A stretch of 64,000 nucleotides of DNA from Sediminispirochaeta bajacaliforniensis DSM 16054. Its GTDB lineage: Bacteria > Spirochaetota > Spirochaetia > DSM-16054 > Sediminispirochaetaceae. Where the stretch lies: positions 1-64,000 of the forward strand of contig NZ_KB899428.1 in NCBI RefSeq assembly GCF_000378205.1, in the 5' to 3' direction. Positions 17,836 through 37,258 of the stretch are shown here, piece by piece. A program made the position numbers and the translations under genes. Within the stretch, counting starts at the first letter, position 1, and the number at the start of each line of letters is the position of its first letter. The notes beneath the pieces are model-generated. The model was not told the DNA's origin. It was given only the letters and a program-made list of their open reading frames with translations, and did not search any database.

Positions 17836-17866
17836 CGGCGGCCCTGGTTCAAGAACCAAGCCGCCG
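17836..17866. terminator. Hairpin between convergent ybiT-like gene and coaBC
   Basis: TGGTTCAAGAACCA (17845-17858) is a perfect palindrome, extended outward by GGCGGC and GCCGCC with a small internal mismatch. It overlaps the last codons of coaBC. There is no T tract, so factor-independent termination is uncertain. Confidence 0.4.
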
Positions 17867-19108
17867 GGCAGCTTCGAGAAGCAGGCGCCTGGCTGCGGCA
17901 TCTTTCAGGCTCAATGGCAGGTCGATCTCTTCTCCGTCTTTGAAAAAGAGGTGAAGCTGATTGGTTTCTGTCTCAAAACCGGACCCCTCTTTTGAAACAT
18001 CATTGACAGCAATCATATCGGCGCTCGCCTTTTTCATCCTCGCAAGGGCATCCTTACGAAGCTCCGCTTCGCTCACCTTATGCAGGGCCCTGAATGCGAT
18101 AAGATAGGTTTTGGGAGAGAGTTCCTTGATCCTGTCGAGTATCTTTGGGGTCGGAGTCAGGGTAAGGTTAAGCTCCTTTCTCCCGTGGGTCGATATTTTG
18201 GTCGACGAGACCGAATTGCACTGCCAGTCGCCAACGGCTGCCGCCGCCACATAGATATCGACATCCTTTTTATCCAGGATTTGTTTGCTGGCAGCAAGAA
18301 GAGACTCTGATGTATCGCATCTGATAAGCTCTACTCCGGCGGGAGGCTTTACACCGATTTTTCCCGCAAGAACCGTTACACGGGCTCCCGAAAGCATTGC
18401 CGTCCTGGCAATAGCCATTCCCATGCGTCCGGAGGCGTTGTTTGTAATGACACGAACAGGATCGATATATTCGACGGTTCTTCCCGCCGTGACCACGACA
18501 TGCTTTCCCGAGAGTGGGGCCGAGTTCTGAAGCAAAAGGGGCAGGGCCGCGTGAAAAATGGTGTCGGGATCGGGGATCTTCGCTTTTCCCTCTTCGATTT
18601 TCGGATCAAGAACCGAGATTCCCAGTTTTCTCAGGGTTGCAATGTTTTGGACCACCATGGGATGACGCCACATCGGCTCATGCATGGCGGGAACGATCAA
18701 AAGAGGAATACCCTGACCGATGGCGGTCGTCGCAAGGGTCGTCACCGTGGTGTCGTCTATTCCTGCGGCGATCTTGCCGAGGGTATTGGCTGTAGAGGGC
18801 GCGATGAGAAGGAGGTCAATCTTTTCCGGAACATCCCCCGCAAGGGCGACATGTTCGATTTTGCCGGTGAGTTTTGTGATGGTTTCGTGTCCTGTTGCCC
18901 ACTCCATGAGGTCGGGATGGATGATACCGCAGGCCGCTTCGGTCATAACCGGGTAAACGTCGGCACCATGACGCATAAGTTGTCTTGCCAGTTCCGGACT
19001 TTTCACTGCTCCGACACTTCCGCAAATACCAAGGGCAATGCTCTTGCCCGAAAGGCAAGCGCTGGCTGTACCGATGATATCCTTCGACGGATGATTATTC
19101 ATGCTCAT
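17849..19108 (-). CDS. coaBC: Bifunctional phosphopantothenoylcysteine decarboxylase/synthetase CoaBC, archaeal-like
   Basis: CoaBC joins 4'-phosphopantothenate to cysteine and decarboxylates the product to 4'-phosphopantetheine. The N-terminal flavoprotein half (1-185) has the catalytic His86 (IEHVAL) and APSTANTLGK. The bacterial PXMNXXMW motif is PAMHEPMW (140-147) and the bacterial ACGDxGxGRM flap is missing, replaced by EGKAKIPD; both features fit archaeal CoaBC as I remember it. The C-terminal half (200-415) is the synthetase, beginning VVVTAGRTVEYIDPVR, then SGRMG and AVNDVS. The 419 residues match the family. The gene overlaps the upstream decarboxylase gene by 4 bases and is the last of the CoA operon. 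Confidence 0.95.
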   Translation of the reverse strand: MSMNNHPSKDIIGTASACLSGKSIALGICGSVGAVKSPELARQLMRHGADVYPVMTEAACGIIHPDLMEWATGHETITKLTGKIEHVALAGDVPEKIDLLLIAPSTANTLGKIAAGIDDTTVTTLATTAIGQGIPLLIVPAMHEPMWRHPMVVQNIATLRKLGISVLDPKIEEGKAKIPDPDTIFHAALPLLLQNSAPLSGKHVVVTAGRTVEYIDPVRVITNNASGRMGMAIARTAMLSGARVTVLAGKIGVKPPAGVELIRCDTSESLLAASKQILDKKDVDIYVAAAAVGDWQCNSVSSTKISTHGRKELNLTLTPTPKILDRIKELSPKTYLIAFRALHKVSEAELRKDALARMKKASADMIAVNDVSKEGSGFETETNQLHLFFKDGEEIDLPLSLKDAAARRLLLEAARRLGS

Positions 19109-20283
19109 GCTATTATCTCCTCGAGGTCATGTAAAAAGGCATCCAGCATCGTTTTGCTTACATGCGGCATTACCGTGATTCTGAGAAAGCCGGGGAAAAG
19201 ACTAAGAGCCCAGCCGCGACCTCGAAGTCGGCGGGCCAGCTCGTCCGGATCGATCCTACGATGTTTTGCGGGTCTGAGCCCTACTACGTTCATTTGCGGT
19301 TCGATTACGGCATCTACACCACTCATGGAATTTAATCGATCGTAGAGGTAACGGCTGTTTTCCATACATGCCGCCACGGTTTCGACATAGCCCTTTCTTC
19401 CAAGACGATGTAAGGTGGCCCAAATCGACGCCACCGAGGCTCCTGATCTGGTTCCCACGATGGTGCGCTGTCGTGTTTTTCCTCCGGCAAGATAGCTCAC
19501 TTCGGTTTCCGAGGCCACCGCAGCATCGTGATTTCGAAAAACAATAGCGCCGGCCGGAATGGCGCAGCGCCCCATTTTATGTGGATCAATGGTGATACTG
19601 CTAACACCCGGCAGGGAGAAATCAAAGGCTGGTGCGGTGTATCCTGCTTCGGCCAGAAAGGGGAGAACGAATCCGCCGAAGGCGGCATCAACGTGAAGGG
19701 GAAGCTTCCATGCCGTGGCCGCAGCGGATATCTCGGTTATAGGGTCGACCGCCCCGAGACCTGTTGTCCCGGCAACTGCCACAAGTACCATGGTCTTATC
19801 ATCTATTGCCTCGAGATATCGTTTCAGATCGACCCTGCCGTCATCTCCCACCGGGATCTTACAAAGATCAAGGTCCATGATGTCGGCAGCCTTGTCGAAA
19901 GAAAAATGGGCACTTTCGGGAAGTACCACCTTCCGTTTTTCCCTGTGTTTTCGTTTGGCAGCCCAGAGGGCGATGAGGTTTGCCTCTGTTCCGCCCGTGA
20001 CGATTGCACCTTCCGCGCTCCGACTTCCCAATAGACGACCCAGCATCCCGATTGTTTCCCGTTCAAGCTGCTGAAGCCGTGGATGCAGCCCCGGATCCCC
20101 TATATTTCGGTCGAGATAATGTTCATAGACCTTTGCACTGGTGGGGTGGGGAAGGGTACACATCGATCCGAGAATTCGCTCTCCCGAAAAAGAGAGATCA
20201 CCCTCCAGTTTTCTGCCCAGCGCAGCAAGTATATCGGCTTCCCCAGAGCCTTGAAGGGGAATCTCTTCTGTCGTATCTTCCAT
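19105..20283 (-). CDS. mfnA: Group II PLP decarboxylase, MfnA-like aspartate/tyrosine decarboxylase
   Basis: 392 residues from ATG at 20283; a frame extension to 20412 would overlap panB and gives an oversized protein. It is a fold-type I PLP enzyme: VTGGTEANLIALWAAK, the ring-stacking His in ESAHFSFDKA (about 127), the Asp in HVDAAFGGF (about 199) and the PLP lysine in IDPHKMGR (about 236). Archaeal MfnA-type enzymes decarboxylate tyrosine or aspartate; in Thermococcus the aspartate enzyme supplies beta-alanine for CoA. Position between panB and coaBC and absence of panD strongly suggest aspartate decarboxylation here, by inference from context. Start lies 11 bases after the panB stop, and its end overlaps coaBC. 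Confidence 0.88.
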   Translation of the reverse strand: MEDTTEEIPLQGSGEADILAALGRKLEGDLSFSGERILGSMCTLPHPTSAKVYEHYLDRNIGDPGLHPRLQQLERETIGMLGRLLGSRSAEGAIVTGGTEANLIALWAAKRKHREKRKVVLPESAHFSFDKAADIMDLDLCKIPVGDDGRVDLKRYLEAIDDKTMVLVAVAGTTGLGAVDPITEISAAATAWKLPLHVDAAFGGFVLPFLAEAGYTAPAFDFSLPGVSSITIDPHKMGRCAIPAGAIVFRNHDAAVASETEVSYLAGGKTRQRTIVGTRSGASVASIWATLHRLGRKGYVETVAACMENSRYLYDRLNSMSGVDAVIEPQMNVVGLRPAKHRRIDPDELARRLRGRGWALSLFPGFLRITVMPHVSKTMLDAFLHDLEEIIA

Positions 20284-20293
20284 CGCCGCAACC

Positions 20294-21076
20294 TTAGTGA
20301 TAGGTGTGAGCGGCGTCCGGGAACCTGCCGCTACGAACATCTTCCCCGTAGGAAGATACGGCCGAGCAAATTGTTGTTCTAAGATCTGCATAGGTTTTGA
20401 CGAATTTAGCAAGATGTCCGCTGGTGAGTCCCAACATATCGTTTATGACAAGCACCTGGCCGCCGCATCGCGCTCCCGCTCCGATGCCTATGGTGGGAAT
20501 CGAGAGCGCTGCACTTATTCGTTCGGCAAGGGACTCGGGGATACATTCGAGGACAATGGAAAAAGCGCCGTGCTCTTCAAGCCTTTTTGCATCTTCTATC
20601 ATGGCTGCGGCGGACTCGGCGTCCTTGCCCTGAACCCTGAAATTTTCCGCTGTCTGCGGAAGCAGGCCGAGATGCCCCATCACGGGAATACCCGCAGAGC
20701 TAAGGGCCTTACAAACGGCAGTATCGGCTCCTTCGAATTTTACTGCGTCCCCTCCCGCGTCCATCAGCCTCTTACCATTTTCGAGGGCCAAGGCGGCGTT
20801 CGAAAAGGAGCCGTAGGGCATATCGGCAACAACCGGCATATCCGGTGCCCCACGGCGTACCATAGCGGTGTGGTACGCCATCTGTTCGACCGTCACCCCT
20901 TTTGTTTCGTTCTTTCCCTGAACAACCATACCAAGGGTATCGCCGACGAGAATCCAGTCCGCCTTCGCCTCCTGGCAGATGGATGCAAAGGTTGCGTCAT
21001 AGGCGGTTATCATTACGATAGGCGTTTTACTTTCCGTTGCTTTGCGCTTTTCCTGCCACTGCAGAATTCTATTCAT
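20294..21076 (-). CDS. panB: 3-methyl-2-oxobutanoate hydroxymethyltransferase PanB
   Basis: PanB transfers a hydroxymethyl group from methylene-tetrahydrofolate to ketoisovalerate, giving ketopantoate, the committed carbon skeleton of pantoate. The 260 residues are the usual length for this TIM-barrel enzyme. Signatures seen: ITAYDATFA near 23-31, VGDTLGMVVQG near 44-54, VVADMPYGS, AVKFEG near 111, PVMGHLGLLPQ near 130-140 and IGIGAGARCGGQVLVINDMLG near 196-216 with conserved catalytic Glu before it (LECIP). It overlaps the phosphopantothenate synthetase gene by 4 bases. The following step, ketopantoate reduction by PanE or IlvC, has no gene in this operon. Confidence 0.96.
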   Translation of the reverse strand: MNRILQWQEKRKATESKTPIVMITAYDATFASICQEAKADWILVGDTLGMVVQGKNETKGVTVEQMAYHTAMVRRGAPDMPVVADMPYGSFSNAALALENGKRLMDAGGDAVKFEGADTAVCKALSSAGIPVMGHLGLLPQTAENFRVQGKDAESAAAMIEDAKRLEEHGAFSIVLECIPESLAERISAALSIPTIGIGAGARCGGQVLVINDMLGLTSGHLAKFVKTYADLRTTICSAVSSYGEDVRSGRFPDAAHTYH

Positions 21077-21843
21077 GAGGCCTCTCCCGCAAGGGCTTCA
21101 AGTCTGGCCGAAATAAAACGCAGGGCCTCTGCAAAGGCCTTGTTGTTGTCGAATCCGTCGAGAACGGTCAGACATTCGGCTTTGCTTAGTTTTTTGAGTT
21201 CGATCGCCGCTTTGGTAATTGCCGGAACCGCTCTGACGATATGATCCATAATAGAGATCGAGGCGGTTCTGCTGGTGCGGCTCAGGGGATTCAGATCAAT
21301 GGTGATAATCCGTTTGCCCATATTCACAAGGGCCTCGGTCCTGTCTCCGTCCTCAAGGGGAACAAAAACGGTATCGGCAATTAAGATTCCCTCCGAATCG
21401 ACCCGCTTACGTTCACTGCCTATCTCCGGGATCTGTCCTTGGCGGGATTCATCGGTACCGAGGATTTCCCTTGCCCCGGCCTTTTCCATTAGCTTTGTAA
21501 TGGCATCTATCCGCTCCCTGCTGCGGTAAAAAAGGTTAATCTCCAGTTTCGCCCCGGTAGCTTCGGCAAGCTCGACCATTGCTTCGGGACAAAGGGCCGC
21601 AGCATTTCCATTTAAGGAAATGATCGGCCGTTCGGCACACAAGAGTGCCGCTGCCGCAGCCCTGATCGGTCCCTGCACACAGTCGGGAGTTTTCTCTCCT
21701 ATCAGATAATCAAAGGCCTCTCCCCGCCCGTGGGCGATCAAGCCTTCTGGGGCAAGGACCTTTGCATCGACCATATCGACAAGGTGTTCCCTCATCCGAA
21801 TCGATTCATACCGGGGATGATCTTTCGGTAAAAACTCACTCAT
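21073..21843 (-). CDS. 4-phosphopantoate--beta-alanine ligase (archaeal-type phosphopantothenate synthetase)
   Basis: 256 residues from ATG at 21843, preceded by GGAGG about 10 bases upstream and overlapping the kinase stop; an open frame extends to 21969 but lies inside the kinase gene. The sequence matches the archaeal PPS family that I know as DUF137: HPRYESIRMREHL at the start, GLIAHGRGEAFDYLIGE, AAAAALLCAERPIISLNGN, the ATP/substrate segment GAKLEINLFYRSRERI, and TIDLNPLSRTS near the end. PPS condenses 4-phosphopantoate with beta-alanine, using ATP, to 4'-phosphopantothenate. It replaces bacterial PanC and CoaA in most archaea. Finding it in a bacterial operon, fused by overlap to a pantoate kinase, is unusual. 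Confidence 0.92.
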   Translation of the reverse strand: MSEFLPKDHPRYESIRMREHLVDMVDAKVLAPEGLIAHGRGEAFDYLIGEKTPDCVQGPIRAAAAALLCAERPIISLNGNAAALCPEAMVELAEATGAKLEINLFYRSRERIDAITKLMEKAGAREILGTDESRQGQIPEIGSERKRVDSEGILIADTVFVPLEDGDRTEALVNMGKRIITIDLNPLSRTSRTASISIMDHIVRAVPAITKAAIELKKLSKAECLTVLDGFDNNKAFAEALRFISARLEALAGEAS

Positions 21844-22777
21844 GGATAACACATCCTCCCTGTTTCGACGAGGTAGTGGTAAAAAGATACCCCTTTTCCT
21901 CGCTTCTGGAAAGAGCCTGTGCCTCTGCTTCGGCACTCTCCTTATCGGGGAACAAGGCAAAGGCGGCATTCCCGAACATCAGCATTGCCGTAGGTGCCCC
22001 GATTGCGTCGAAGTGATCGAAAAGCCTACGCACTTCGGGGGTAATGAGCCCTGACCGTTCATCAAAGGCCCTGCTTGCCCAGAGAAAGGCTTCGAGCGTC
22101 GGGGTGCAAAGAAGATCTGCGATCAGCTGTTCGCCGGTATCGTTGATACGTCGCCTGATATCTGGGTCAGAGAGGGCGGAACTGGTCGAAATTTTGCGAT
22201 AGACGACAAAAAGAAGGTTGAGATCGTCGGAAATAGGTATCGATACCACCTCGCCTGTCCCGGGGGCCCCCTGTTTCTTACGAATTTCAACACCGCCGCA
22301 GAATTCACCAATGACCGTTCCGAGTCCTGTCTTACACAAAACTTCGGCTCGATGGGCCATTGCACCTGCCTCCTCTGCGGAGAGTGGAGAACCCAGGGCA
22401 TGGTTAAGAGCCAGCGCCAGACTGAGCACCCCTGCTCCGCTGCTTCCGAAGCCGCTGCCTTGCGGAATTTCGATTGAATGAGATATTTCTCTGATGACAA
22501 CATCCTTCAAGAGGGCAGCATCTTGAAAGAGGGAGATGAGCCTTTTGCTTACCACAAGGTCGCTACGTTCTTTGCCGTTTGAGCGGTAGATTGTCTTATC
22601 CCCGGCACTGTGGCCTCCGGACTGTGAAGCGGAGGATAGCGTGACCGTGGTTGTTACCCCTCTTGCAATGGAAAACCCGGCCCCGATCGAGCCCTTGCTG
22701 TCTATTGAATCCTCATCGTCCCGTATGGAAAAGAGTCCCGTTATATGTCCTGGGGAGAAAGCCTTTGCAGTGATCAT
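21836..22777 (-). CDS. Pantoate kinase, archaeal-type GHMP kinase
   Basis: 313 residues from ATG at 22777. The GHMP-kinase phosphate loop is at about 105-116 (PQGSGFGSSGAG). The opening AKAFSPGHITGLFSIRDDED and the segments KGSIGAGFSIARGV, AHRAEVLCKTGLGTVIGEFCGG and PTAMLMFGNAAFALF match archaeal pantoate kinase rather than homoserine, mevalonate or ispE-type kinases. PoK makes 4-phosphopantoate from pantoate and ATP. The next gene is the synthetase that uses this product, which strongly supports the call. It is the first gene of the five-gene operon. There is no clear ribosome site, and the likely -10 hexamer (22788-22793) puts the transcript start within a few bases of the ATG, so a near-leaderless mRNA is possible. 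Confidence 0.9.
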   Translation of the reverse strand: MITAKAFSPGHITGLFSIRDDEDSIDSKGSIGAGFSIARGVTTTVTLSSASQSGGHSAGDKTIYRSNGKERSDLVVSKRLISLFQDAALLKDVVIREISHSIEIPQGSGFGSSGAGVLSLALALNHALGSPLSAEEAGAMAHRAEVLCKTGLGTVIGEFCGGVEIRKKQGAPGTGEVVSIPISDDLNLLFVVYRKISTSSALSDPDIRRRINDTGEQLIADLLCTPTLEAFLWASRAFDERSGLITPEVRRLFDHFDAIGAPTAMLMFGNAAFALFPDKESAEAEAQALSRSEEKGYLFTTTSSKQGGCVIHE

Positions 22778-37186: not shown

Positions 37187-37258
37187 GCCAAAGTAGCTCA
37201 GGGGTAGAGCAACGCTCTCGTAAAGCGTAGGTCGTGAGTTCGAATCTCACCTTTGGCT
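37187..37258 (+). tRNA. tRNA-Thr (anticodon CGT)
   Basis: A full cloverleaf: acceptor GCCAAAG (37187-37193) pairs with CTTTGGC (37251-37257), D stem GCTC/GAGC, anticodon stem ACGCT/AGCGT with loop CTCGTAA (anticodon CGT), T stem GTGAG/CTCAC with TTCGAAT loop, discriminator T. CCA is not encoded. It reads ACG threonine codons. The stop codon of the convergent UroD-family gene begins one base past its 3' end. Confidence 0.96.

Follow-up and report, generated by a model that had tools for sequence, protein, structure and literature searches.

The window analyzed here is the 64,000-nucleotide stretch at positions 1 to 64,000 of contig NZ_KB899428.1 from the free-living spirochaete Sediminispirochaeta bajacaliforniensis DSM 16054 (assembly GCF_000378205.1). 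A block on its minus strand, at 17849-22777, consists of five genes, which family searches assign to pantoate kinase (PoK), phosphopantothenate synthetase (PPS), ketopantoate hydroxymethyltransferase (PanB), an MfnA-type pyridoxal phosphate (PLP)-dependent decarboxylase, and CoaBC. An earlier interpretation based on the DNA letters alone (the sequence-only reading) had named the same five genes and viewed them as an archaeal-type operon for the biosynthesis of coenzyme A (CoA), a cofactor needed by every cell. With the most likely start codons, the genes are as follows:

21836-22777, minus strand: PoK, pantoate kinase (GHMP kinase), 313 residues; predicted to convert pantoate and ATP to 4-phosphopantoate
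21073-21843, minus strand: PPS, phosphopantothenate synthetase, 256 residues; predicted to convert 4-phosphopantoate, beta-alanine, and ATP to 4'-phosphopantothenate
20294-21076, minus strand: PanB, ketopantoate hydroxymethyltransferase, 260 residues (PF02548, TIGR00222)
19105-20283, minus strand: MfnA-type PLP-dependent decarboxylase, probably an aspartate 1-decarboxylase giving beta-alanine, 392 residues (TIGR03812)
17849-19108, minus strand: CoaBC, archaeal-type bifunctional phosphopantothenoylcysteine synthetase/decarboxylase, 419 residues (TIGR00521)

The block has only four junctions, and their spacing is as described in the sequence-only reading (overlaps of 4 to 8 bases or a distance of 10): PoK and PPS overlap by 8 bp, PPS and PanB by 4 bp, and MfnA and CoaBC by 4 bp, with a 10-bp gap between PanB and MfnA. 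An in-frame ATG upstream at 21969 is a possible, less likely start of PPS, and a TTG at 20412 is also possible for MfnA. The G+C content of the operon (0.538) differs too little from that of the window (0.506) to argue for a recent transfer. At the gathering score, an RNA search of the window shows a tRNA at 37187-37258 as the sole match and no riboswitch.

PPS matches Pfam family PF02006 with an E value of 8e-72 (241 bits; cutoff, 26) and passes the cutoff of NF010324 (350 bits; cutoff, 227), narrowly missing that of NF041123 (297.6 bits; cutoff, 300); its two sequence matches in the PDB, 4mb0 (E value, 5e-73) and 3wdk (3e-72), are both PPS. MfnA scores 431 bits against TIGR03812 (cutoff, 299) and matches PDB entries 3f9t and 6jy1, titled L-tyrosine/L-aspartate decarboxylase, with an E value of 2e-76. 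PanB is recognized by PF02548 (E value, 3e-95) and TIGR00222 (283 bits; cutoff, 208) and CoaBC by TIGR00521 (347 bits; cutoff, 220). The best models for PoK are the two pantoate kinase ones, NF040725 (E value, 2e-40) and NF041122 (5e-40), followed by mevalonate kinase (4e-8). A search of the sequences of solved structures at an E value of 0.001 shows a single match to PoK, the pantoate kinase 6jbc (4e-33), which is also the top Foldseek match (3e-26) of its AlphaFold model (predicted local distance difference test score, 91); homoserine kinase, in second place (1e-15), and the mevalonate enzymes follow about ten orders of magnitude behind. An alignment of 20 chosen PoKs has 27 invariant columns, including GLGTV and glycines that belong to the GHMP motif. 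These matches mark the protein as a predicted GHMP-family pantoate kinase of the archaeal type.

The sequence-only reading held that this operon stands in for PanC, CoaA or CoaX, and PanD, and the rest of the genome bears this out. The assembly (4.57 Mb in 75 contigs; completeness, 100) has no matches to panC (PF02569) or panD (PF02261) and, with regard to pantothenate kinase, none to coaX (PF03309) or coaA (TIGR00554); the type II kinase family was not searched. TIGR00521 matches no protein of this genome other than the CoaBC of the operon. The genome also encodes one bacterial-type CoaE, an enzyme found in all 21 genomes tested. Reduction of ketopantoate had been named as the only step missing from the operon, correctly so: the ketopantoate reductase gene panE is absent there, although present in the related operons of Bathyarchaeota and Cloacimonadota described below. 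Candidate reductases are encoded elsewhere in the genome, with three matches to the PanE family and three to the IlvC family; the PanE homologues are 22 to 24% identical to the PanE of a bathyarchaeal operon. Thus, a candidate gene exists for every step that leads from ketoisovalerate to phosphopantetheine, whereas the families searched supply none for the bacterial conversion of pantoate to phosphopantothenate. The canonical set of PanC, PanD, and CoaA or CoaX is not found in this genome. Judging by its gene content, namely, PPS, an MfnA-type enzyme in place of the pyruvoyl PanD, an archaeal-type CoaBC, and no match to PanC or the pantothenate kinases searched for, the organism probably follows the archaeal route.

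PPS is found in 13 of the 392 Spirochaetota genomes, in nine genera, all of them in the class of the window's organism. Within the phylum, panC is present in 164 genomes and coaX in 330, and neither is found in any of the 13 carriers (Fisher test, 9e-4 and 1e-11, respectively, uncorrected for relatedness). No match to coaA above the cutoff is found in the 20 genomes tested. The five genes are found in one order in eight of the 13 carriers: the window's genome, G370, G096, G314, G316, G185, G267, and G286. This order is hardly due to chance, because it recurs in seven further spirochaete genomes, in six of which the proteins are just 33 to 54% identical to those of the window. The single-contig genome G370, with the same operon at 94 to 98% protein identity, matches the isolate genome of Spirochaeta smaragdinae, whose complete sequence is described in PMC3035371 (excerpted text), which would place the operon in a cultured bacterium. 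According to the same excerpt, S. smaragdinae needs yeast extract, for which a vitamin mixture is no substitute; no link to the operon is claimed. Contamination or misassembly was considered and judged unlikely, given this near-identical operon in an isolate genome on a single contig.

The remaining carriers show other arrangements. G238 has the order PoK-PPS-CoaBC-PanB with a PanB of the canonical type, and the operon of G380 is broken off by the end of the contig. G006, G049, and G142 combine PoK-PPS with bacterial-type PanB, CoaC, CoaB, and PanD. In the first two of these (loci L018 and L017, respectively), PoK-PPS lies a few kilobases from the bacterial-type panB-coaC-coaB-panD cluster, a natural hybrid of both routes.

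Several relatives from outside the set of carriers have mixed gene contents as well. G130 (loci L146 and L127) and G376 (L150), which belong to the window's class and have no PPS match, encode an archaeal-type CoaBC that falls inside the spirochaete clade; panB, panC, coaX, and panD adjoin one another in G130. Both look like lineages from which the archaeal kinase and synthetase have disappeared while the archaeal CoaBC persisted. G379, which has panC and coaX and lacks PPS, encodes two MfnA proteins above the cutoff and no PanD, which suggests that MfnA is perhaps a source of beta-alanine for the canonical pathway, too. In G149 and G266 (family f9, genus g13), which share the genus code of the carrier G238, neither PPS nor coaX is matched.

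Among the 17 PPS-bearing bacterial genomes, 12 have only MfnA above the cutoff, three have only PanD, two have neither, and none has both. All 17 encode a candidate reductase of the PanE or IlvC family. IlvC is found in 12 of the 13 spirochaete carriers, the exception being G238, with two PanE-family matches; the four PPS-bearing bacteria from outside the spirochaetes have PanE and no IlvC (0/4). These patterns bear on the idea that the operon serves another purpose, with MfnA forming tyramine or another amine and PoK and PPS acting on other substrates. The names of the PDB relatives of MfnA would allow for a tyrosine decarboxylase, and the functions of the spirochaete enzymes are assigned by sequence. 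However, panC, panD, coaA, and coaX were not found in the window's genome, which has retained CoaE, so that such an operon would leave the cell with no other visible route to CoA, and the complementary distribution of MfnA and PanD among the carriers would have to be explained differently. We regard this idea as extremely doubtful and a role of the operon in CoA biosynthesis as the reading to be preferred.

Outside the spirochaetes, a search of the genome contigs of 84,980 species with an alignment as the query shows at least 542 relatives of PPS, of which the best 80 were analyzed; the window PPS alone, used as the query, found no relatives. By record title, 72 of these best 80 loci (of at least 542) come from archaea and eight from bacteria (four spirochaetes, three Cloacimonadota, and one Hydrothermota). 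The order PoK-PPS-PanE-PanB-MfnA-CoaBC is found in Bathyarchaeota (L027, L041, and L044) and in Cloacimonadota (L045, L028, and L034; the last two start inside the operon at the start of their contigs). The extra gene encodes the ketopantoate reductase PanE, with 216 to 238 bits against TIGR00745 (cutoff, 141) in the four loci scanned, L026, L027, L028, and L081; similar reading frames occupy this position in other loci of the same order. In the spirochaete operon, the corresponding slot, at the PPS/PanB junction, is empty. The bathyarchaeal locus L081, whose record bears the title chromosome, follows this order and includes PanE but retains only a remnant of MfnA; it is flanked upstream by an aldehyde ferredoxin oxidoreductase gene and downstream by TldD-family genes, one of which scores best, below the cutoff, against an archaeal TldD model. 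Bacterial lnt and recJ genes lie upstream of the operon in Cloacimonadota L045. In a Hydrothermota metagenome-assembled genome (MAG), the genes are spread over two contigs, one with PoK-PPS-PanE-PanB and the other with PanB-MfnA-CoaBC. L036, titled an archaeon, shows the order PoK-PPS-MfnA-PanB-CoaBC, and a shorter related order, PoK-PPS-PanB-CoaBC, is found in Nitrososphaeria. Spread on plasmids was also considered and set aside, as PPS has no match among 72,556 plasmids.

The CoaBC proteins of the two routes differ in their motifs. As the sequence-only reading had it, the window CoaBC lacks the ACGDxGxGRM flap: it carries PAMHEPMW and EEGKAKI at the sites where bacterial-type CoaBC has PAMN and, typically, the ACGDxGxG flap. 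The pattern P(A/S)MHxxM followed by EGKAK is found in all 14 spirochaete rows of archaeal-type CoaBC, whereas the 10 bacterial-type rows in the tree have PAMN or PSMN, with the ACGD flap in four and variants of ACGD in the others; 15 archaeal rows from several groups do not match the simple pattern PxM(N/H/S).

For the phylogenies, matches shorter than 60% of the query were left out of the family sets, and repeat loci of one genome were dropped from the trees, as were rows below 330 residues (CoaBC and MfnA), 215 (PanB), 200 (PPS), or 230 (PoK). In the CoaBC tree (63 rows), the archaeal-type sequences are split with support of 100/100 from the 10 of bacterial type, which include five from other Spirochaetota. 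Fourteen spirochaete sequences, including those of the PPS-less G130 and G376, form one clade within the archaeal part; joining the spirochaete CoaBC to the bacterial type is rejected by the approximately unbiased (AU) test (P, 0.022), which concerns a group named after inspection of the tree and so counts for less in favor of an archaeal origin. In the PoK tree (73 rows, built by a quick method and unrooted), all 17 spirochaete rows form one clade among archaeal rows (Shimodaira-Hasegawa-like approximate likelihood ratio test, 100), adjoining Bathyarchaeota and Nitrososphaeria. In the PanB tree (62 rows), nine operon PanBs group with those of Bathyarchaeota, Cloacimonadota, and one Thermoplasmata row (86/98), and on the other side are eight other spirochaete rows with canonical PanBs as well as the PanBs of plasmid outgroups, Heimdallarchaeota, Nitrososphaeria, and Desulfurococcales; the PanB of G316 is a long branch beside the Thermoplasmata row. 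The MfnA tree, with 24 rows and very long outgroups, was not used for rooting.

A concatenation of the five genes from 43 chosen taxa (1,617 columns), from which the canonical-type PanBs of G238 and L090 and the long-branch PanB of G316 were left out, unites the 14 spirochaete rows in one clade (100/100) beside Cloacimonadota (84/88) and keeps the 23 rows of the operon group together at 100/100; the Hydrothermota row branches first within the Bathyarchaeota set. In agreement with the sequence-only reading, then, the kinase and the synthetase fall with archaeal PoK and PPS, and the tree and motifs alike place CoaBC with the archaeal type. For PoK, PPS, and CoaBC, the support for an archaeal origin is good; for PanB and MfnA, whose histories are less certain, such an origin is plausible.

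The occurrence of PPS in records of three bacterial phyla among the best 80 of at least 542 and the all-bacteria clade, which the concatenated data do not reject, might suggest that the PoK/PPS route was already present in early bacteria and survived in a few phyla with no transfer between domains. We consider this very unlikely: the distribution within Spirochaetota is patchy (13 of 392 genomes), the CoaBC of the carriers groups with archaeal sequences, apart from the bacterial-type proteins of five other Spirochaetota, and the spirochaete PoKs lie, in an unrooted tree, among archaeal rows near Bathyarchaeota and Nitrososphaeria.

Transfer from archaea, the preferred reading, could have been piecemeal, with PoK/PPS, CoaBC, MfnA, and PanB each acquired from a different archaeal or bacterial source; convergent clustering would then account for the order that they share. 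The partial states of G006 and G049, with PoK-PPS beside bacterial-type PanB, CoaC, CoaB, and PanD, fit this account, as do the canonical-type PanB of G238 and the scattered PPS tree. Still, a single order in eight spirochaetes, three Cloacimonadota, and several Bathyarchaeota argues for a block, as does the fully supported union of the 23 rows of the operon group, and the archaeal-type CoaBC of the PPS-less G130 and G376 resembles the outcome of later loss or replacement. Piecemeal acquisition is therefore regarded as unlikely. The sequence-only reading had left the choice between block transfer and assembly of a whole module; block transfer is the best reading of the operon, with the part concerning PanB and MfnA being less certain, as a placement with bacterial PanBs is not rejected (AU test P, 0.21).

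A block could also have been assembled from archaeal genes in a bacterium, a member of Hydrothermota or Cloacimonadota, and then passed to Bathyarchaeota and spirochaetes. The order with PanE is common to the bacterial and bathyarchaeal operons, the Hydrothermota row is the first to branch in the Bathyarchaeota set, and unrooted trees do not fix the direction. With 72 of the best 80 PPS loci (of at least 542) being archaeal, with shorter PoK-PPS-PanB-CoaBC orders in Nitrososphaeria, and with PoK and PPS described, in the excerpted text of PMC6650551, in most archaea, this possibility appears quite improbable, and an archaeal source of the block is preferred.

Some observations weigh against transfer of an archaeal block and its predicted function. 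PoK scores under both curated NCBIfam cutoffs (138 of 380 and 138 of 500 bits). Weak matches below the cutoff are seen for coaA in G314, G348, G394, and G395 and for coaX in the Hydrothermota genome G392, and the PoK-PPS carriers G238 and G380 have neither PanD nor an MfnA above the cutoff. The carriers are related within families, so the Fisher values overstate their independence. The Hydrothermota and Cloacimonadota records are MAGs, and the Hydrothermota row nests with Bathyarchaeota, which makes misbinning possible. The PPS tree (93 rows) has a weak backbone and shows spirochaetes in four places, with a single clade not rejected (AU test P, 0.44); on its own, it was set aside as too weak to count transfers. 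The operon PanBs stand apart from most other archaeal PanBs as well, so that their tree is not a simple division between archaea and bacteria. A single clade of all bacteria is not rejected by the AU test (P, 0.34).

With these points taken into account, the operon very probably represents the archaeal middle part of CoA biosynthesis, an archaeal module that, as gene order and trees suggest, was transferred in one block and took the place of the bacterial route, with PanE being lost in the spirochaetes. PanB would form ketopantoate, which a reductase encoded outside the operon (a PanE homologue or IlvC) would convert to pantoate. PoK would phosphorylate pantoate, MfnA would decarboxylate aspartate to beta-alanine, and PPS would couple phosphopantoate with beta-alanine to 4'-phosphopantothenate, with no free pantothenate as an intermediate. 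CoaBC would then add cysteine and decarboxylate the product to 4'-phosphopantetheine, and later enzymes, including the bacterial-type CoaE found for the last part, would complete CoA. As to the donor and direction, we infer an archaeal source, most likely within or near Bathyarchaeota, and a linked block of genes with PanE among them at first; this block would have entered an ancestor within the window's spirochaete class and displaced PanC, pantothenate kinase, and PanD there.

The system is not new in kind; what is unexpected is the domain of life in which this known pathway occurs. In the excerpted text of a 2019 paper (PMC6650551), PoK and PPS are called "unique to the archaea," and no report of either in bacteria was found in the literature searched by title and the beginning of the abstract, mostly without subscription papers; such annotations may already exist in public protein databases. 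The same excerpt describes the pathway of Thermococcus kodakarensis, with PoK, PPS, aspartate decarboxylase, and CoaBC (TK0517). This pathway shares with that of the spirochaete the steps from pantoate to phosphopantetheine, with phosphorylation before condensation; PoK and PPS are homologous in the two organisms, and CoaBC and the PLP-dependent aspartate decarboxylase have counterparts. In contrast to T. kodakarensis, the spirochaete genes are found in a bacterium, in one five-gene operon, together with a bacterial CoaE for the last step, and ketopantoate reductase, the enzyme on which feedback acts in the Thermococcus pathway (PMC6650551), is absent from the operon. The bathyarchaeal cluster agrees with the spirochaete operon in its five genes, their order, and their strand, the difference being its PanE between PPS and PanB. 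The canonical bacterial panB-panC-coaX-panD cluster, as in G130, leads to the same product, 4'-phosphopantothenate, and has PanB in common; however, pantothenate is made there first and then phosphorylated, and PanC, CoaX, and the pyruvoyl PanD belong to families other than those of PPS, PoK, and MfnA.

For a cultured bacterium to have PoK and PPS and to lack their bacterial counterparts would mean that domains can exchange a universal core pathway in the form of an operon. On balance, we favor the view that two or three bacterial phyla have received a complete archaeal CoA module as a single block, which replaced an essential core pathway, and that the carriers make CoA without free pantothenate and have become unable to use vitamin B5 or to respond to analogues of it. 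They are thus predicted to show no salvage of pantothenate and no effect of analogues that depend on pantothenate kinase. The point of feedback control may differ as well, since no pantothenate kinase was found among the families searched and the PanE homologues of this genome are only distantly similar to the PanE of the bathyarchaeal operon. The intermediate states in relatives would provide a graded series for studying the exchange. Genome annotation that seeks only panC and coaA or coaX would wrongly score such bacteria as unable to make CoA.

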